Of a stretch of 64,000 nucleotides of DNA, positions 49,698 through 56,150 are shown piece by piece. The notes below the pieces were generated by a model. That model searched no databases and had not been told where the DNA came from. It saw nothing but the letters and a program-made list of their open reading frames with translations. This stretch comes from Streptomyces profundus (GTDB taxonomy: Bacteria; Actinomycetota; Actinomycetes; Streptomycetales; Streptomycetaceae): assembly GCF_020740535.1 (NCBI RefSeq), contig NZ_CP082362.1, positions 3,966,501-4,030,500 on the forward strand. The letters are read 5' to 3'. Within the stretch, counting starts at the first letter, position 1. Every line of letters begins with the position of its first letter. The position numbers and the translations under genes are program-made.

Positions 49698-50390
49698 CTA
49701 ACGCCCGCCCGTGGGGCGGCGGCGCGCCTTGACGGTCTGGTCGGTGCGGGTGGTGGGCTCGCCGGTGGTCGGGTGGTGCTGCACGCGCTTGTGCCGCTCG
49801 GCGCGCAGCACCTCCCACTCCGCCGGGTCCAGCGCCAGGGCGGCCACCGTCTCCTCCGGGGTGGGGAAGGGCACGTCCGTCGGATGCCCGTGCTCCCACT
49901 CGGGGAACCCCGCGTGCGCCTCGATCAGCAGGGTGCCGCCCGGGGCCACCGCCGAGGCGGCGCCGCGCAGCACCTTCGGGCCGAGCGTCGCGTCGGTGAA
50001 GTGCAGGAAGTGGGTGGTGACCAGGTCGAAGAGCCCGGCGGGGAAGGACTCCGTCAGATCGTGCCGCCGCCAGTCCACCCGGTCGGCGACGCCGGCCGCC
50101 GCCGCGTGCTCGGCCGCCCTGGCGAGCGCCACCCCTGACACGTCGACGCCGGTGACCCGCCAGCCGCGGCCGGCCAGATGGATCGCGTCCCCGCCCTCGC
50201 CGCAGCCCAGGTCGAGCGCGGTGCCGGGGGCGAGGCCGGCGGTCTCCTCGACCATCGCCGCGTTGGGCTCGCCGCTCCAGAGGTGGTCACTGGCGGCGTA
50301 ACGCTCGTCCCAGTACCGCTCGTTGGCGAGTGGATCCCCGGAGTCCGGGGGCAGTAGCGGTCCGTGCTCGTGCGGTCGGTGTGTGCTCAT
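49698..50390 (-). CDS. Class I SAM-dependent methyltransferase
   Basis: A 230-residue SAM methyltransferase, similar to thiopurine/heavy-metal-type (TehB-like) enzymes. Motif I is ALDLGCGEGGDAIHLA (about 58-73), the acidic strand VTGVDVSGVAL, motif II LFDLVTTHFLHF and motif III APGGTLLIEAH. It is translated from an ATG that overlaps the thioredoxin reductase-like gene stop by ATGA. Coupling with a CxxC flavoprotein suggests a joint redox/detoxification or resistance role, for example of an alkylable or thiol-reactive compound; substrate unknown. Confidence 0.9.
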   Translation of the reverse strand: MSTHRPHEHGPLLPPDSGDPLANERYWDERYAASDHLWSGEPNAAMVEETAGLAPGTALDLGCGEGGDAIHLAGRGWRVTGVDVSGVALARAAEHAAAAGVADRVDWRRHDLTESFPAGLFDLVTTHFLHFTDATLGPKVLRGAASAVAPGGTLLIEAHAGFPEWEHGHPTDVPFPTPEETVAALALDPAEWEVLRAERHKRVQHHPTTGEPTTRTDQTVKARRRPTGGR

Positions 50391-51388
50391 GCCGCTCCCT
50401 CCATGGCCAGGGCCTGCGCGGCCTCGGCCTTGATCAGATCCATGTTGACGGCCGCGCCGGCGCGCTGGCCCGCGCTCGCCGCCGCGACCAACTGCTCGGT
50501 GACGCTGGCGACGTTGCCGGCGACCCAGACGCCCGGCACCGCGGTGCGCCCCGTGAAGTCGGAGGGGACCTCGCTTCCCAGCACCACCCCGTCCCTGACC
50601 ACCTCCTCGGCGCGCAACCCGAGGCCCGCCAGCGGCTCGGCGCGCGCGGTGAGGAGGGGCGTCACCACCAGGGCCCGGCAGGGCACGTGCGTCCCGTCCG
50701 CCAGCGTGACGCCCCGGAGCCCGCCTTCGGCCGTCTCGACCCTGGCCACCGTGCCGGGCGTCACCCCGATGCCACGGGCGGCGAGCAGCCGCAGGTCCGC
50801 CTCGTCGAAGGCGGGCGCCGTGTGGCTCAGCACGGTGACCGAGGGGCTCCACTGCCGCCAGAGCAGCGCCTGGTCGACGGCGAGCGCGGGGTGCCTCGCC
50901 AGCACGGCGATCGGCTGGTCCCGCACCTCCCAGCCGTGGCAGTAGGGGCAGTGCAGCACCTCCCGGCCCCAGCGGTCGGCCAGGCCGGGGATGTCGGGCA
51001 GCTCGTCCACCAGGCCGGTGGCCACCAGCAGCCGGCGGGCGCGGACGGCGGCTCCCTCGGCCAGCGTCACCAGGAACCCCGCCTCGGCGTCCTCGCCGCC
51101 CTCGGGGCCACCGAGCGGGGTGACGGTGCGCACGGTGGCCCGGACGATCTCGGCGCCGTAGCCGGTCGCCTCGGCCCTGCCGGCGGCCAGGATCTCGGCG
51201 GGTGGGGCGCCGTCCCTGGTCAGAAAGCCGTGTGCGTGCGCGGCCAGGGCGTTGCGCGGCCGGCCGCCGTCGATCACCAGGACCGAGCGGCGGGCCCTGG
51301 CCAGCGTCAGCGCGCCGCTGAGGCCCGCCGCTCCACCCCCGATGATCACCACCTCGTAGCGGCCCTCGCGCGGGGTCTCTGCGTCCAT
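50387..51388 (-). CDS. Thioredoxin reductase-like FAD oxidoreductase
   Basis: A 333-residue class II pyridine nucleotide-disulfide oxidoreductase. FAD motif VVIIGGGAAGLSGALTLAR, redox Cys pair CPYC in LHCPYCHGWEV, and the late AVPGVWVAGNVASVTEQL (FAD-binding) are visible. The NADPH-binding Rossmann motif is weak (PIAVLARHPA). Such proteins reduce disulfides or act on gliotoxin/holomycin-like dithiols (HlmI-type). The ATG at 51388 follows a GGGAGC site. It is co-translated with the methyltransferase and divergent from an XRE/cupin regulator. Confidence 0.9.
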   Translation of the reverse strand: MDAETPREGRYEVVIIGGGAAGLSGALTLARARRSVLVIDGGRPRNALAAHAHGFLTRDGAPPAEILAAGRAEATGYGAEIVRATVRTVTPLGGPEGGEDAEAGFLVTLAEGAAVRARRLLVATGLVDELPDIPGLADRWGREVLHCPYCHGWEVRDQPIAVLARHPALAVDQALLWRQWSPSVTVLSHTAPAFDEADLRLLAARGIGVTPGTVARVETAEGGLRGVTLADGTHVPCRALVVTPLLTARAEPLAGLGLRAEEVVRDGVVLGSEVPSDFTGRTAVPGVWVAGNVASVTEQLVAAASAGQRAGAAVNMDLIKAEAAQALAMEGAA

Positions 51389-51454
51389 GTCGGCCTGCTC
51401 CCTGTCGTCCGGCTCCGTCGTCCTCCGCTGGCGACGATGCGGGAATGGGGGCGG

Positions 51455-51484
51455 GTTTGACAAACATCGTTGCCGTGTCGGCAA
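51455..51484. promoter_or_regulatory. Palindromic operator/promoter between the reductase and regulator genes
   Basis: GTTTG-A-CAAAC (51455-51465) is a perfect palindrome and contains the forward -35 hexamer TTGACA (51457-51462). A second perfect repeat TTGCC-GTGTC-GGCAA (51470-51484) sits where the -10 would be. This matches an autoregulated divergent promoter. Confidence 0.55.
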
Positions 51485-51492
51485 ATGGAAGG

Positions 51493-52167
51493 ATGACGGA
51501 AGAGCACGGGCAGCGGAGAGCGGACCTACGAGAGGCCACCGGGACGGACGCCGACGAGGGGGGCGCGCTCGCCAGCGTGCTGAGCGGCGTGGGCCCCCGC
51601 CTGCGCGCCCTGCGGCGGGAACGCGAGATCACCCTGGTCGCGCTGAGCGAGCGGACCGGGATATCCGTGAGCACCCTCTCCCGGCTGGAGTCGGGCCGGC
51701 GCCGGCCCACCCTGGAGCTGCTGCTGCCGCTGGCCACGGCCTACCATGTGCCGCTCGACGAGCTGGTGGGGGCGCCCGCCACCGGCGACCCCCGGATCCA
51801 CCCGCGCCCCTTCACCCGCTTCGGGCAGACCTTTGTGCCGCTCACCCGCTATCTGGGCGGGCTGCACGCCTACAAGCAGATCCTCCCGCCGGGGTACAAC
51901 TGCGGCGCCGACGGGCGGCCGGGGGAGCCGCGCACTCATGAGGGGTTCGAGTGGCTCTACGTCCTCTCGGGCCGGGTGACGATGACGCTGGGGGACCGGC
52001 AGTTGACGCTCGCCGCGGGCGAGGCCGCCGAGTTCGACACCAGGGTGCCGCACGCGCTGGCCAACCCCGATCCCCAACCCGCCGAGTTCCTCAGCCTGTT
52101 CGGGGCCCAGGGCGAACGCATCCATGTCCGCGCCCGATCGGGCGGCGCCCCGCCTCAGGGGCCCTGA
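51493..52167 (+). CDS. XRE-family regulator with cupin domain
   Basis: A 224-residue transcription regulator with an N-terminal XRE helix-turn-helix (LRALRREREITLVALSERTG, SVSTLSRLESGRRRPT, about 40-90) and a C-terminal cupin_2 domain (HEGFEWLYVLSGRVTMTLGD then LAAGEAAEFDTRVPHAL). The ATG at 51493 was chosen because a longer frame from 51445 would read through the TTGACA promoter element. It is divergent from the CxxC reductase/methyltransferase pair and probably controls it. Its ligand is unknown; the cupin metal residues are only partly conserved. Confidence 0.9.
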   Translation: MTEEHGQRRADLREATGTDADEGGALASVLSGVGPRLRALRREREITLVALSERTGISVSTLSRLESGRRRPTLELLLPLATAYHVPLDELVGAPATGDPRIHPRPFTRFGQTFVPLTRYLGGLHAYKQILPPGYNCGADGRPGEPRTHEGFEWLYVLSGRVTMTLGDRQLTLAAGEAAEFDTRVPHALANPDPQPAEFLSLFGAQGERIHVRARSGGAPPQGP

Positions 52168-52426
52168 CCCCCGCCGCACGCGAAGAGGCCCCGGACTCCC
52201 ACCGAAGCGGGCGCCCGGGGCGCATCGGGCGTCGGCCCCCGACCGACATCCGATGTACTGGTGGTCGAGCTGGGCCTGATCCGGACGATGCCCCCTCCAC
52301 GCCGCCCGAATCACCACCCGCCCGGACCCTGTCCGGCGACTCCCCCGTCGCCGCCGAACAGGTCCACCGGGGAGGCCGGCCGCGCACCCCTGTGCGGCCG
52401 GACATGGATGAGCATGTCAGGCGGCC

Positions 52427-52444
52427 ATAAACGAGTGATAAACG
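52427..52444. repeat. ATAAACG direct repeat, 11-base period
   Basis: ATAAACG at 52427-52433 and again at 52438-52444, with agtg between. The same layout recurs in diverged form at 53172-53189 next to afsR. Confidence 0.8.
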
Positions 52445-52447
52445 TCT

Positions 52448-52476
52448 GCGGGCGGTCCCCCGGGGGGACCGCCCGC
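52448..52476. terminator. Terminator of the small secreted peptide gene
   Basis: A 14-bp perfect inverted repeat (52448-52461 with 52463-52476) lies 33 bases downstream of the stop of the leftward peptide gene. Confidence 0.8.
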
Positions 52477-52508
52477 TGGTGGCATGCCGTCGGAGCAACG
52501 GCGGTTGG

Positions 52509-52634
52509 TCAGTCGCCTGACTGCGAGGTGCCGCCGCCGCTGATGAAGTGGTCGGCCTGGGCGGTGCCGGCCACTCCGACCAACAGCGCGGTGGTCAGGG
52601 CGGCACCGATAGCGAACCTTCTGAAGCGGATCAT
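52509..52634 (-). CDS. 41-residue secreted peptide
   Basis: A short ORF encoding a 41-residue preprotein. The N-terminus is basic (MIRFRRFA), then a hydrophobic core (IGAALTTALLVGVAG) and a signal peptidase site TAQA before Asp-His, leaving a mature peptide of 14 residues starting DHFISGGGTS. A clear ribosome site (GTGAGGAG, 8 bases spacing) and a strong terminator 33 bases downstream support a real gene, although it is too short for most gene finders. The DHFIS motif resembles the DHWVS repeated in the AfsS-like product of the next gene upstream. No known family is recognised; role unknown. Confidence 0.75.
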   Translation of the reverse strand: MIRFRRFAIGAALTTALLVGVAGTAQADHFISGGGTSQSGD

Positions 52635-52787
52635 GCCGGGTCTCCTCACTGCGAATGCCGAACTGCGCTCGATGTGTCGGCGCGTCGATTTACGGAACGT
52701 CAGATGCGAGGTGAAGCGGAAGTGCCCATATGTGAGGGCCGGTTCCCCGGAGTCCGGGTACCGGCCCTCGTACGACCATTGTGCGGC

Positions 52788-53036
52788 TCAGGACACCCAG
52801 TGGTCCACCGGGGCGATGGGGCCCGGCTTCTCCTTGGGCTCACCGGAGACCCAGTGGTCCTCGGTGCCGACCTCCCCGTCCCCGTCCTCCCCGCTCTTCC
52901 TGGCCTCCGGGGCGTCACGCTCGGGCTTGGTCCCCGGGACCTTGGGCTCGCCGGAGACCCAGTGGTCCTTGGGACCGACGGGGCCTGGCGTGGTGTCCTG
53001 CTCGCTCTCCTGCGTGTGCGACGTGGTGTCGGTCAA
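52788..53036 (-). CDS. afsS: AfsS-like small regulatory protein, TTG start
   Basis: An 82-residue acidic protein directly downstream of afsR, where afsS lies in S. coelicolor. It has three repeats carrying Asp-His-Trp-Val-Ser: GPKDHWVSGEPK (21-32), GTEDHWVSGEPK (57-68) and APVDHWVS (75-82, the C-terminus). This matches the repeat architecture of AfsS (T-P-x-D-N-H-x-P repeats), though the sequence has drifted. The start is a TTG at 53036, preceded by AAGGAG with a 6-base spacer; no ATG/GTG start fits. AfsS is thought to stimulate antibiotic gene transcription as an effector of AfsR; function here is by position and repeats. Confidence 0.78.
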   Translation of the reverse strand: MTDTTSHTQESEQDTTPGPVGPKDHWVSGEPKVPGTKPERDAPEARKSGEDGDGEVGTEDHWVSGEPKEKPGPIAPVDHWVS

Positions 53037-53093
53037 CGTCAGCTCCTTGACGGTACGGCTGATCCGGGCGACACGGACACGCCAGCGGTCCCC

Positions 53094-53115
53094 TCGTTCG
53101 CCGGTCGTTCCCTGG
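53094..53115. promoter_or_regulatory. 11-bp direct repeat, candidate AfsR/PhoP site before afsS
   Basis: TCGTTCGCCGG and TCGTTCCCTGG are adjacent 11-mers with 9 of 11 identities, 58-80 bases upstream of the afsS start. The AfsR site at S. coelicolor afsS, and PHO boxes (GTTCA-type 11-bp units), have this period; the fit is to layout and GTTC core, not a confirmed site. Confidence 0.5.
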
Positions 53116-53171
53116 CCGGAAACGTCCGCCCCCGTGGTCAGCGAATGGTGGGCAGAGACTGACACGCAAAA

Positions 53172-53195
53172 ATAAATGATCGGTAAACGTGTCAA
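53172..53195 (-). promoter_or_regulatory. Candidate afsS promoter with AT-rich 11-bp repeat
   Basis: On the minus strand a perfect TTGACA (53190-53195) is followed by an AT-rich stretch holding CGTTTAC-CGAT-CATTTAT, i.e. repeated xTAAAxG units with an 11-base period; a TATTTT hexamer lies 15 bases after the -35. It falls just after the afsR stop codon. Confidence 0.4.
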
Positions 53196-53213
53196 CTCGG
53201 TTCGCTTTGGGCT

Positions 53214-56150
53214 CTAGACGCCCGCAGGAGCCAGAAGGTTCCGTGCCATGGCCGCCTCGGGGCTGCCGAACCGTTCGAAAATCGTCAGTGCCTCCTGCCA
53301 ACAGGCCCGGGCCCGGTCCGTCTGGCCGAGGGAGTCGAGGGCCTGGCCTAGCATCAACAGCACCGTGCCGCGCCGCCATTCGCCGCCGATGCCGCCCAGC
53401 GCCAGCGCCCGTTCCGCGTGCTGCGCCGCCTCGGCCGGGCTGCCGGCGGCCAACCGCAGCTCGCCGAGCCGGAAGTTCGTCACGCCCTCCCAGAGCCGCT
53501 GCCGGCTCTCCTGGAACCCGGCGAGCGCCTCGGTGAACTCGGCCAGCGCCTCCTCGTGCCGCTTGGCCTGGCTCAGCGCGACGGCCAGCGCGTAGCGCGC
53601 GTTGGCCAACCGCGTCGCCGACTTCGCGCCGCTCTGGTACTGGGTCAGGCACTGCGCGGCCAGCTCGATGGCGCTGTCGACGCGCCCGGTGTCCAGGTGC
53701 ACCCGGGAGAGGTTGGCCAGCGCGCTGGCCTCGCTCGGCAGGTTGCCGTCCGCGCGGAACCGCTCGATGGCGCGGGTGAGACAGCTCTCGGCCCGCTCCA
53801 TGTCGCCCCGGTAGATGGCGATGATCCCCCGGTCGTTGAGCGCGGCCGAGATGGCGTAGGCGTCGTCGGCCGCCGTGCCCAGCAGCATGGCGCGCTGCGC
53901 CTCGGCGTCGGCCTCGTCGAACCGGCCGGCGACGGAGTAGCTGTGGGCCAGCAGCGCGTGCAGCCGGGCCTGGGCCTGATCGTCCTCCGCCGCCCGCGCG
54001 GCGGCCAGCACGGCGTGCGCCACTTGGTCGAACTGGTAGGAGAACGCGCCCGACTCGCCCAGGTCCTGGGCGGCGAGCAGGGTGTCGACGCAGCGCCGCA
54101 GCAGCGTCGTGCCGGACGGCTGGCGCACGCAGGCCAGCACGCACTCGGCCTCGGCGAAGAACCAGTCGAGCGCCGCCGCGAGATCGGGGAAGGACAGCCC
54201 CGGGTGCTCCGTGATCGCCAGATGGTCGACCAGCCGGTCGCCCGGGCGCTCCATCGCGTAGACCTGGGCGCAGCTGGCCAGGTAGAAGTCCAACAGGCGG
54301 GTGCTGGCGGCCTCGCGCTCGGCCGGCGGCTGCTCGTCCCGTTCGGCGCAGGCCCGGGCGAACAGCCGCACCAGGTCGTGCATCCGGTACCGGCCGGGGG
54401 CCGCCGACTCCACCAGCGAGGTGTCCACCAGGGACTCCAGCAGCTCCTCGGTGGTCTCCGCGTCGCGGTTGAGCAGCGCGGAGGCCGCGGCCAGCGAGAT
54501 GTCCGGGCCCTCCGTCAGCCCCAACAGCCGGAACGTGCGGGCCTGTTCGTCCTCCAGCTGGCCGTACCCCAGCTCGAAGGTGGCTTTGACGGCCTGGTCG
54601 CCCGCCTTCAGCTCGTCCAGCCGGCGGCGCTCGTCGCTGAGCTTGCGCGCCAGCGTGGACACCGTCCAGGTGCGGCGGGCCACCAGCCGGGCGGCGGCGA
54701 TCCGGATCGCCAGCGGGAGGAACCCGCAGGCGCCGACCACGGCCATGGCGGCCTTGCGCTCGCCGCGCACCCGTTCGTCGCCGACGATCCTGGTGAAGAG
54801 GGTCAGCGCCTCGTCGGGGCTCATCACGTCCAGGTCGACCAGATGCGCCCCCGCCAGGTCGACCATCCGCAGCCGGCTGGTGATCAGGCTGGCGCAGCCG
54901 GGCGTGCCGGGCAGCAGGTCCCGCACCTGGGCGGCGTCCCTGGCGTTGTCCAGCAGGGTGAGCACCCGGCGGCCGTCGAGCAACGAGCGGTAGAGCGCGG
55001 CGCGTTCGTCCACCCCGTCCGGTATCGACTGGTCGGAGATGCCCAACGCCCGGAGGAACGAGGCCAGCACGGCGGCCGGATCGGCCGGTGCCGCGCCCGC
55101 GCCCTGGAGGTCCACATAGAGCTGGCCGTCGGGGAAGTGGTCCCGCGCCGCGTGCGCCACCTGCACGGCGAGCGTGGTCTTGCCGACCCCGCCGATCCCG
55201 GCCACCGCCGAGACGGCCATCACCTGGCCACCGGCCGAGGAGAGTTGGGCGCCGAGCTCCGCGACGAACGAGGCCCGTCCGGTGAAGTCGGGCACGGCGG
55301 CCGGCAGCTGCGCGGGGCGGATGCTGGGGGTCGGCGCGCTGCTCTGCTGCGCCGGGAGGTTGAGGCCCGGGTCGGCGTTCAGGATGCGCTGCTGGATCTC
55401 GGACAGCTCGGCGCGCGGCTCCACGCCCAGCTCGTCGATCAACAGCCGCCTGGCGTCGGCGTAGACGGCCAGCGCCTCGGCCTGCCGGCCGGCCCGGTAG
55501 AGCGCCAGCATCAGCAGCTCGCGCAGCCGCTCCCGCAGGGGGTAGGTGGTGGTGAGCTCGGTCAGCTCGGAGATGGAGTCCGCGTGCAGGCCGGCCTGGA
55601 GGCCGACGTCCAGGCGCTGTTCGCGCAGGCCGAGCCGCCGCTCGGCCAGCCGGGTGCGCTGCACCTCGGCCTCGGGGCCCGGCACGCCGGCGATCGCCTC
55701 GCCGTCCCAGAGGTCGAGCGCCTCGCCGAACAGCTCGTGCGCCTGCGTCAACTCGCCGGCGCCCGCCGCCTGCTCGGCGGCCGAGGCGATCCGTGCCACC
55801 TCGTCCAGGTCGAGCTGGTCGTGGGGGTCGAGCCGCAGCGCGTAGCCGCCGAACTGGCTCACCAGCACCGCCGCCCTGGGCCCGAAGGACTTCCGCAGCC
55901 GGGAGGCGTAGGTGCGCAGGGCGGCGACCGCCTGCTGCGGAGGCTCGTCCCCCCACAGCGCGTCGACCAGCTCGGACACGGACACCGGCCGCCCGCGCCG
56001 CAGCAACAGGACGGCCAGCAGCGCGCGTTGCTGCGGTGACCCGGCGGGCAGTAGTCGGCCGCCCTGCCAGGCACGAATCGGGCCAAGCACCGCAAAGCGC
56101 AAGGCGGGTGTGTAACCCCCCGTGTTCCCCGTCCCCTCACCAACGGCCAT
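53214..56150 (-). CDS. afsR: Global regulator AfsR (SARP with NB-ARC and TPR domains)
   Basis: A 978-residue regulator. An N-terminal winged-helix plus bacterial transcriptional activation domain of the SARP type (about 14-265: LRFAVLGPIRAW, VSVSELVDALWGDEPP, ALRTYASRLRKSFG) is followed by an NB-ARC STAND ATPase (Walker A GIGGVGKTT; VLTLLDNARD Walker B-like), and TPR repeats in the C-terminal third. AfsK phosphorylates AfsR, which then binds the afsS promoter. Its gene neighbours afsS and the AfsK gene 8 kb away support orthology. The ATG has an AGAGGAC site. Length (993 in S. coelicolor) fits. Confidence 0.97.
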   Translation of the reverse strand: MAVGEGTGNTGGYTPALRFAVLGPIRAWQGGRLLPAGSPQQRALLAVLLLRRGRPVSVSELVDALWGDEPPQQAVAALRTYASRLRKSFGPRAAVLVSQFGGYALRLDPHDQLDLDEVARIASAAEQAAGAGELTQAHELFGEALDLWDGEAIAGVPGPEAEVQRTRLAERRLGLREQRLDVGLQAGLHADSISELTELTTTYPLRERLRELLMLALYRAGRQAEALAVYADARRLLIDELGVEPRAELSEIQQRILNADPGLNLPAQQSSAPTPSIRPAQLPAAVPDFTGRASFVAELGAQLSSAGGQVMAVSAVAGIGGVGKTTLAVQVAHAARDHFPDGQLYVDLQGAGAAPADPAAVLASFLRALGISDQSIPDGVDERAALYRSLLDGRRVLTLLDNARDAAQVRDLLPGTPGCASLITSRLRMVDLAGAHLVDLDVMSPDEALTLFTRIVGDERVRGERKAAMAVVGACGFLPLAIRIAAARLVARRTWTVSTLARKLSDERRRLDELKAGDQAVKATFELGYGQLEDEQARTFRLLGLTEGPDISLAAASALLNRDAETTEELLESLVDTSLVESAAPGRYRMHDLVRLFARACAERDEQPPAEREAASTRLLDFYLASCAQVYAMERPGDRLVDHLAITEHPGLSFPDLAAALDWFFAEAECVLACVRQPSGTTLLRRCVDTLLAAQDLGESGAFSYQFDQVAHAVLAAARAAEDDQAQARLHALLAHSYSVAGRFDEADAEAQRAMLLGTAADDAYAISAALNDRGIIAIYRGDMERAESCLTRAIERFRADGNLPSEASALANLSRVHLDTGRVDSAIELAAQCLTQYQSGAKSATRLANARYALAVALSQAKRHEEALAEFTEALAGFQESRQRLWEGVTNFRLGELRLAAGSPAEAAQHAERALALGGIGGEWRRGTVLLMLGQALDSLGQTDRARACWQEALTIFERFGSPEAAMARNLLAPAGV

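Follow-up and report, generated by a model that had tools for sequence, protein, structure and literature searches.

Downstream of afsR and afsS in Streptomyces profundus lies a gene for a predicted secreted peptide of 41 aa, whose mature part carries the short motif that the neighboring AfsS protein repeats. Computation showed that this gene belongs to a family with its own signal peptide, that the motifs of peptide and AfsS match within a species, and that the AfsS motif co-varies with the C-terminal TPR domain of AfsR. Read from the sequences, these results suggest that a secreted AfsS-motif peptide beside AfsR may be an unrecognized peptide signal in the control of antibiotics. Both AfsR and AfsS belong to the classic global regulators of antibiotic production; AfsS is also named AfsR2 (SCO4425 in S. 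coelicolor). The co-variation supplies candidates for a ligand and for the domain that binds it, along with a putatively secreted form suited to synthesis and addition to cultures, and the motif–TPR reading yields species-specific predictions. A 2026 paper (PMC13011467) calls the way in which AfsS activates its clusters still unknown, and whether any inducer binds the AfsR sensor domain was an open question as of 2024 (PMC10936776). If true, our reading would provide a cheap handle on silent antibiotic clusters; it would also add signaling by peptides to a phylum in which small molecules are described as the typical signals (PMC10075063).

The window, i.e., the whole 64-kb stretch of S. profundus DNA under analysis, contains the peptide gene on its minus strand, with an ATG at 52634 and the stop codon at 52509-52511 (Table 1). 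The product consists of MIRFRRFAIGAALTTALLVGVAGTAQA (signal peptide) and DHFISGGGTSQSGD (mature part of 14 residues, starting with DHFIS). Signal peptides were assigned by a simple rule (K/R, a hydrophobic stretch and an AxA-type site), by which the predicted Sec-type signal peptide of this ORF ends in AQA. An in-frame GTG at 52649, five codons upstream of the ATG, is also open but adjoins the ribosome site. A previous sequence-only reading had proposed a secreted 41-aa peptide with an AQA site and a ribosome site, and the ORF, the rule-based signal peptide and the GAGGAG were all confirmed. A GGAG-type site also precedes the gene in nine relatives displayed, although this is no independent test because our locus scan demanded a ribosome site. 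The terminator proposed in that reading was borne out in part: a GC-rich hairpin follows the gene (-42.2 kcal/mol for a 69-nt stretch around it, z -5.4), but it has no U tract, and a terminator scan requiring one returned none in 52400-53300. Lying between convergent genes, the hairpin may serve both. The convergent gene (51445-52167, plus strand) encodes an HTH-cupin regulator, and its start is overlapped by a divergent pyridine-nucleotide-disulphide oxidoreductase gene (50387-51484, minus strand). Searches of the peptide and AfsS against Pfam and NCBIfam gave nothing over a cutoff, and a plasmid search with the peptide gene region gave no match.

Table 1. Features of the afsR–afsS–peptide region; positions refer to the 64-kb window.
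Feature	Position	Strand	Basis or remark
Gene of the predicted secreted AfsS-motif peptide, 41 aa	52509..52634	-	sequence
Signal peptide codons of the 41-aa ORF	52554-52634	-	
Mature part of the 41-aa ORF	52512-52553	-	
Motif DHFIS in the peptide gene	52539-52553	-	
Ribosome binding site GAGGAG, 7 nt before the ATG of the peptide gene	52642..52647	-	
GC-rich 13-pair hairpin after the peptide gene, possible terminator	52448..52476	-	
Hairpin separating afsS from the peptide gene, possible terminator of afsS	52734..52769	-	z -4.4, 63-nt stretch
afsS orthologue, 82 aa, TTG start with AAGGAG upstream, DHWVS x3	52788..53036	-	
Degenerate afs-box-like direct repeat CGTTTACCGAT CATTTATTTTT, upstream of afsS	53168..53189	-	3 mismatches to GTTCA-N6-GTTCA
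afsR (SARP, NOD/NB-ARC, arm and TPR domains)	53214..56150	-	NF053617
TPR sensor domain of AfsR, residues 766-978	53217..53855	-	

The peptide gene begins 153 bp after afsS, which in turn follows afsR. With 1547 bits against the NF053617 equivalog (cutoff 1430), the window protein of 978 aa is a true AfsR; the boundary of its TPR domain at residue 766 was transferred from the S. coelicolor numbering in PMC10936776. This AfsR also matches the HaaT and FxSxx-system TPR models below their cutoffs, and a link to cyclophane RiPPs was considered. The DHWVS copies of the window afsS have their first bases at 52967, 52859 and 52805. It has been published that afsS is activated by AfsR. A GTTCA-N6-GTTCA repeat with at most one mismatch, resembling the published afs box (consensus CGTT(T/C)ATCGNN; PMC10972967), was located between afsR and afsS, upstream of the latter, in 44 of 54 loci. 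By contrast, none of the 54 loci had such a repeat within the 170 nt scanned upstream of the peptide gene, which is therefore not obviously an AfsR target; control through an afs box of its own was rejected.

A strong AfsR was present in 241 of the 246 Streptomyces genomes searched. Our set of 230 AfsR loci combines two collections (151 loci, and 79 from named genomes), which overlap in species, so that 230 is not a species count; the sample is also biased towards AfsR sequences near that of the window. Left out of it were L014 (contig end), L025 (incomplete), L026-L030 (another family), L191 (the second AfsR match of its genome) and L239-L243 (not AfsR-anchored). A first scan for D-x-H motifs returned several small, predicted secreted ORFs after afsS bearing the AfsS motif of the same species, and a second, motif-free scan was run to remove the D-x-H bias of the first. 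Here, ORFs of 35-125 aa on the same strand were accepted if they had a rule-based signal peptide and a ribosome site and started 330-1760 nt into a stretch opening ~60 nt before the end of the AfsR match. Such an ORF was found after afsS in 60 of the 230 loci, three families among them looking spurious (L045, L155 with L209, and L197). No peptide gene was found by this rule in 170 loci, and the rule overlooks some real cases (L002, L012 and L020 were found by other rules). At L147, without a peptide gene by rule, AfsS has 63 aa, the length reported for S. coelicolor AfsS in PMC2267785. When a relaxed scan was combined with a match to the AfsS core, 53, 43 and 35 of 222 loci passed at thresholds of 24, 27 and 29, respectively, compared with 2, 1 and 1 in the reverse complement of the same loci. 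Conservation in relatives, the lack of which had been named as an argument against the sequence-only reading, is thus present: relatives carry the gene. Eleven regions after AfsR paralogues (L244-L254, three of them in the S. profundus genome) contained neither an AfsS-like repeat protein nor an AfsS-motif secreted ORF, and the arrangement may hence be special to true AfsR.

The peptide motif was compared with that of the AfsS encoded in the same locus. Across 48 non-redundant pairs, the mean best six-residue score was 29.35 for cognate AfsS–peptide pairs vs. 21.61 for non-cognate ones, and the observed cognate mean lay above all 20,000 permutations. From this set, L040 and L181 (no picked AfsS) and ten redundant pairs had been dropped, while the spurious-looking L045, L155 and L197 were kept (L209 repeats L155); these three were excluded from the codon, afs-box/31-locus, curated-pair and pair tests. 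When peptides were swapped between related loci with different AfsS cores, the cognate pairing was better in 17 of 18 non-overlapping pairs and, with near-identical loci collapsed, in 15 of 16 (one-sided p 2.6e-4); each locus was used once, and pairs may share deeper branches. In 44 curated cognate pairs, core positions 1-5 agreed in 98, 70, 93, 43 and 82 percent; when non-cognate pairs were sampled and their best match taken, the values were 71, 29, 70, 23 and 42 percent. One exception was L112, which looks real but encodes a peptide unlike its AfsS, and which was excluded from the codon comparison and the curated-pair set. In the six-frame translation of the window, DH[FWY][ILVM][ST] occurs four times, i.e., in the three AfsS repeats and in this peptide. 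The coupling between AfsS and peptide motifs is computationally strong, and a chance match of DHFIS was rejected by the permutation, the swap tests, the relaxed-scan control and the motif count in the window. Hence, the earlier observation on this ORF was confirmed and its link to AfsS supported: the resemblance of the mature 14-mer, starting with DHFIS, to the DHWVS repeats next door is no coincidence.

By rule, the repeat protein was picked in 222 of the 230 loci, with 86 different core pentamers that include some register and picking errors. AfsS cores are repeated inside one AfsS and differ between species, being unusually variable for an intracellular regulator. With a motif this variable, the aromatic residue is not its defining feature; the Asp-His-aromatic motif initially described is indeed shared with AfsS, but that form is specific to the lineage of the window. 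AfsS/peptide pairs comprise DHWVS/DHFIS (window), DHYAS/DHYSS (S. zhaozhouensis), DHQIT/DHQVT, DEHHGT/DEHHSS and DKHMP/DRHMP (S. natalensis), and the matching persists where His is lost in both proteins, as in DRYAS/DRYTS (S. triticirhizae), DNYGT/DNWGT (S. hainanensis), DSNRP/DNNRP and DNGMP/DNPMP (S. albicerus). Among the named relatives, the two closest to the window have AfsR genes 77-78 percent identical to its own, and across these three the motif shifts in both proteins. Of 44 peptides, 33 carry the motif behind an AxA-like site and 15 have it at the C-terminus; with its position varying in this way, no single mature form is evident. The number of copies per peptide is one in the window and 1-7 in relatives.

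For 107 clean, non-redundant loci, we then correlated how far AfsS cores differ with how far each AfsR domain differs. These loci remained from 115 AfsR sequences after eight had been discarded, seven as likely mis-extracted (wrong frame) and L035 as just over a cut; before this removal, the values were 0.155 (raw TPR), 0.443 (partial TPR) and -0.375 (partial NOD). Raw correlations with the AfsS motif in the 107 loci were 0.63 for TPR, 0.42 for the arm, 0.20 for SARP and 0.18 for NOD. Given the other three domains, the partial correlation was 0.53 for TPR (1/1000), 0.105 for the arm (27/1000), 0.007 for SARP and -0.055 for NOD, and a rank version showed the same picture (arm 0.127). The AfsS core motif co-varies with the C-terminal TPR domain of AfsR, weakly with the arm, and not with SARP or NOD, in distance correlations from which residual phylogenetic structure is not fully excluded. 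Since the arm diverges as fast as TPR (mean identity 0.545 and 0.575 in 123 sequences, seven of them mis-extracted), the rate of change does not explain the difference between the two. With SARP and NOD held constant, TPR held 18 of the best 20 and 42 of the best 50 among the 283 variable arm and TPR columns, of which 165 are in TPR. Further, none of the 211 variable five-residue windows outside TPR tracked this domain as well as the AfsS core did (best partial correlation 0.370 vs. 0.528; raw 0.390 vs. 0.633). Cutting such a window out of its own control left the outcome unchanged, and both this control and the column scan gave the same outcome with or without the windows' own domain regressed out. 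The exact AfsS core was predicted by the nearest neighbor, near relatives excluded, in 36 of the 107 loci from TPR, 26 from the arm, seven from NOD and four from SARP; with near relatives kept, TPR predicted 42 and the arm 39.

Modeling of AfsR residues 609-978 (arm and TPR) gave a TPR superhelix with a mean pLDDT of 93. Its best matches among solved structures were LGN and then, scoring lower, kinesin light chain TPR domains, many being peptide complexes; no RRNPP receptor was among the 50 structures listed. A preset list of positions, which we took to line the TPR groove, showed no enrichment (p 0.28). According to PMC10936776, NOD and TPR inhibit the SARP domain of AfsR, ATP binding relieves this inhibition, and whether the sensor domain binds an inducer remains elusive.

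We give an even chance to a mechanism in which the exported peptide shows, outside the cell, the AfsS motif, this motif is a ligand of the AfsR TPR domain, and signaling runs via re-import. The AfsS motif would most likely be a ligand of the C-terminal TPR domain, and AfsS, produced under AfsR control, would bind there and feed back on AfsR. The Sec-exported peptide would present outside what AfsS carries in several copies inside; once cleaved by signal peptidase and perhaps trimmed, it would re-enter the producer and its kin, e.g., through an oligopeptide permease, and there act on this TPR domain. AfsR activity would thereby also reflect neighbors of the same motif type. Our inferences here concern secretion, re-import and signaling, as well as physical binding and the sign of the effect. 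Several results count against this mechanism: the non-significant correlation of the peptides' own motif with TPR in 31 loci, the groove positions without enrichment, the 170 loci lacking a peptide gene by rule, the missing afs box before the peptide gene, the varying motif position, the near-equal prediction of the AfsS core by TPR and arm when near relatives are kept, and the lack of an RRNPP receptor among the 50 structures listed. The wider proposal, that AfsR as a STAND-type protein senses a species-specific pentapeptide via its TPR domain, is held more tentatively, at somewhat under an even chance. AfsS would supply the motif inside; outside, a dedicated secreted peptide would do so in about a fifth to a quarter of the loci examined. 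Such pherotype-like antibiotic communication would also explain the role of AfsS.

A different and, in our judgement, unlikely course would be that the peptide acts extracellularly on another receptor with the same motif recognition (a membrane kinase, a transporter or a wall protein), re-import being unnecessary. Export is the feature of the peptide most directly predicted, and its own motif, compared directly with TPR in 31 loci, showed no significant correlation (partial r 0.096, 158/1000), while AfsS in the same loci reached 0.30; both points suit another receptor, which would, however, have to change in step with the AfsS motif.

A role as an exported sink or by-product is also rather improbable; the peptide would then be a copy of an AfsS repeat joined to a signal peptide, with little function and a similarity due to gene exchange. 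Patchy occurrence would agree with this, as would the slightly higher use of the same codon for identical residues in cognate pairs (47 of 95, 0.49) than in non-cognate pairs (0.41; repeats within AfsS, 0.52). The difference between 0.49 and 0.41 places the likeness mostly at the protein level, with a slight excess, and recent gene conversion as the chief cause of the matching was rejected by this comparison. Residues match though codons often differ (in the window, those for W/F, V/I and S of DHWVS and DHFIS), and the peptide follows lineage-specific motif changes, both of which speak against a by-product. So does a pooled pN/pS of 0.60 between related peptide genes, a value to which some loci contribute in several pairs and in which two pairs exceed 1. 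Common descent with AfsS is not demonstrated either, given one copy, no repeat array, no afs box and a codon match slightly above chance; the term "relative" of AfsS, used in the sequence-only reading, is justified by the shared motif but not by these other features.

We regard as quite improbable that the co-variation between AfsS and TPR reflects shared history, with the 3' part of afsR recombining linked with afsS and the peptide gene as a third linked gene. The three genes are neighbors and the distance correlations contain phylogenetic signal, as such a history would have it. Yet the AfsS–TPR signal stayed at 0.509 after synonymous distances were removed, and synonymous distances of the TPR region, given all amino-acid distances, added 0.003. 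In addition, the signal declines from 0.45 to 0.28 on approaching afsS, whereas linkage would give the reverse; this is evidence against linked recombination, which was rejected as an artefact on both counts. Finally, an N-terminal Asp-X-His is the albumin-type (ATCUN) metal motif and directly follows the predicted cleavage site in many relatives, but a copper- or nickel-binding peptide is highly improbable and this motif was rejected as the conserved function, as His stands second in the window peptide (DHF) and is absent from both proteins in several lineages.

Returning to peptide signaling through the AfsR TPR domain, the closest likeness is AfsS itself, with the same short species-specific motif and a gene that adjoins the peptide gene after afsR. 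AfsS has no signal peptide, at least two motif copies and an afs box upstream, whereas the window peptide has a rule-based signal peptide, a single copy and no detectable afs box before its gene. The RRNPP systems of Bacillota (Rap-Phr, PlcR-PapR, NprR) are similar in having a small, putatively Sec-exported propeptide near a TPR regulator gene and in peptide codes that are both diversified and matched. We applied five RRNPP criteria as given in PMC10075063. The window peptide, at 41 aa, fits a propeptide of 10-100 aa. For a Sec-secreted propeptide, there is here a signal peptide by simple rule; for receptor TPRs that bind the peptide, AfsR has TPRs with which the AfsS motif co-varies, the motif of the peptide itself not significantly so. 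The receptor should have 250-500 aa, but AfsR is a SARP/NB-ARC activator of 978 aa, and peptide and receptor genes should be directly adjacent, but afsS lies in between. As receptor length and adjacency depart from the scheme (two of five), and Sec export and peptide binding by the TPRs are predicted features here, the system was not classed as RRNPP. Also unlike RRNPP, an intracellular multi-copy bearer of the motif (AfsS) sits between the two genes, which are those of Streptomyces hosts. NosP provides a precedent for a SARP responding to a peptide (Li et al. 2018): its reported ligands, peptidyl and small-molecule, derive from the nosiheptide precursor. There, the ligand is tied to the precursor of one antibiotic, as opposed to a dedicated secreted peptide of a global regulator. 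Full-text literature searches covering few subscription papers, together with passages of PMC10936776, PMC2267785, PMC10972967, PMC13011467, PMC10075063, PMC6930871 and PMC3424136, turned up neither a secreted peptide with the AfsS motif nor binding between AfsS and AfsR.

When 61 genomes were searched with a profile of the peptide alignment, many weak signal-peptide matches and few clear ones were returned. A profile search of proteins listed 50 (7990 best candidates scored); those with names were entries called hypothetical, uncharacterized, secreted or lipoprotein, and all organism names that could be read were Streptomyces. Two different predicted secreted AfsS-motif ORFs lie downstream of afsR in a single locus at L064, L171 and L181, which suggests duplication. 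The S. profundus genome encodes, at ~4.87 Mb (L239:5016-5156), a second small and putatively secreted ORF whose signal peptide (MTRTKKFIAALCLALGLVGAVAAPALADKQRPVPGADVVTFGNTKP) is of the same type; this ORF lies away from afsR, has no D-x-H motif and outscored the window peptide in the profile search of the genomes.
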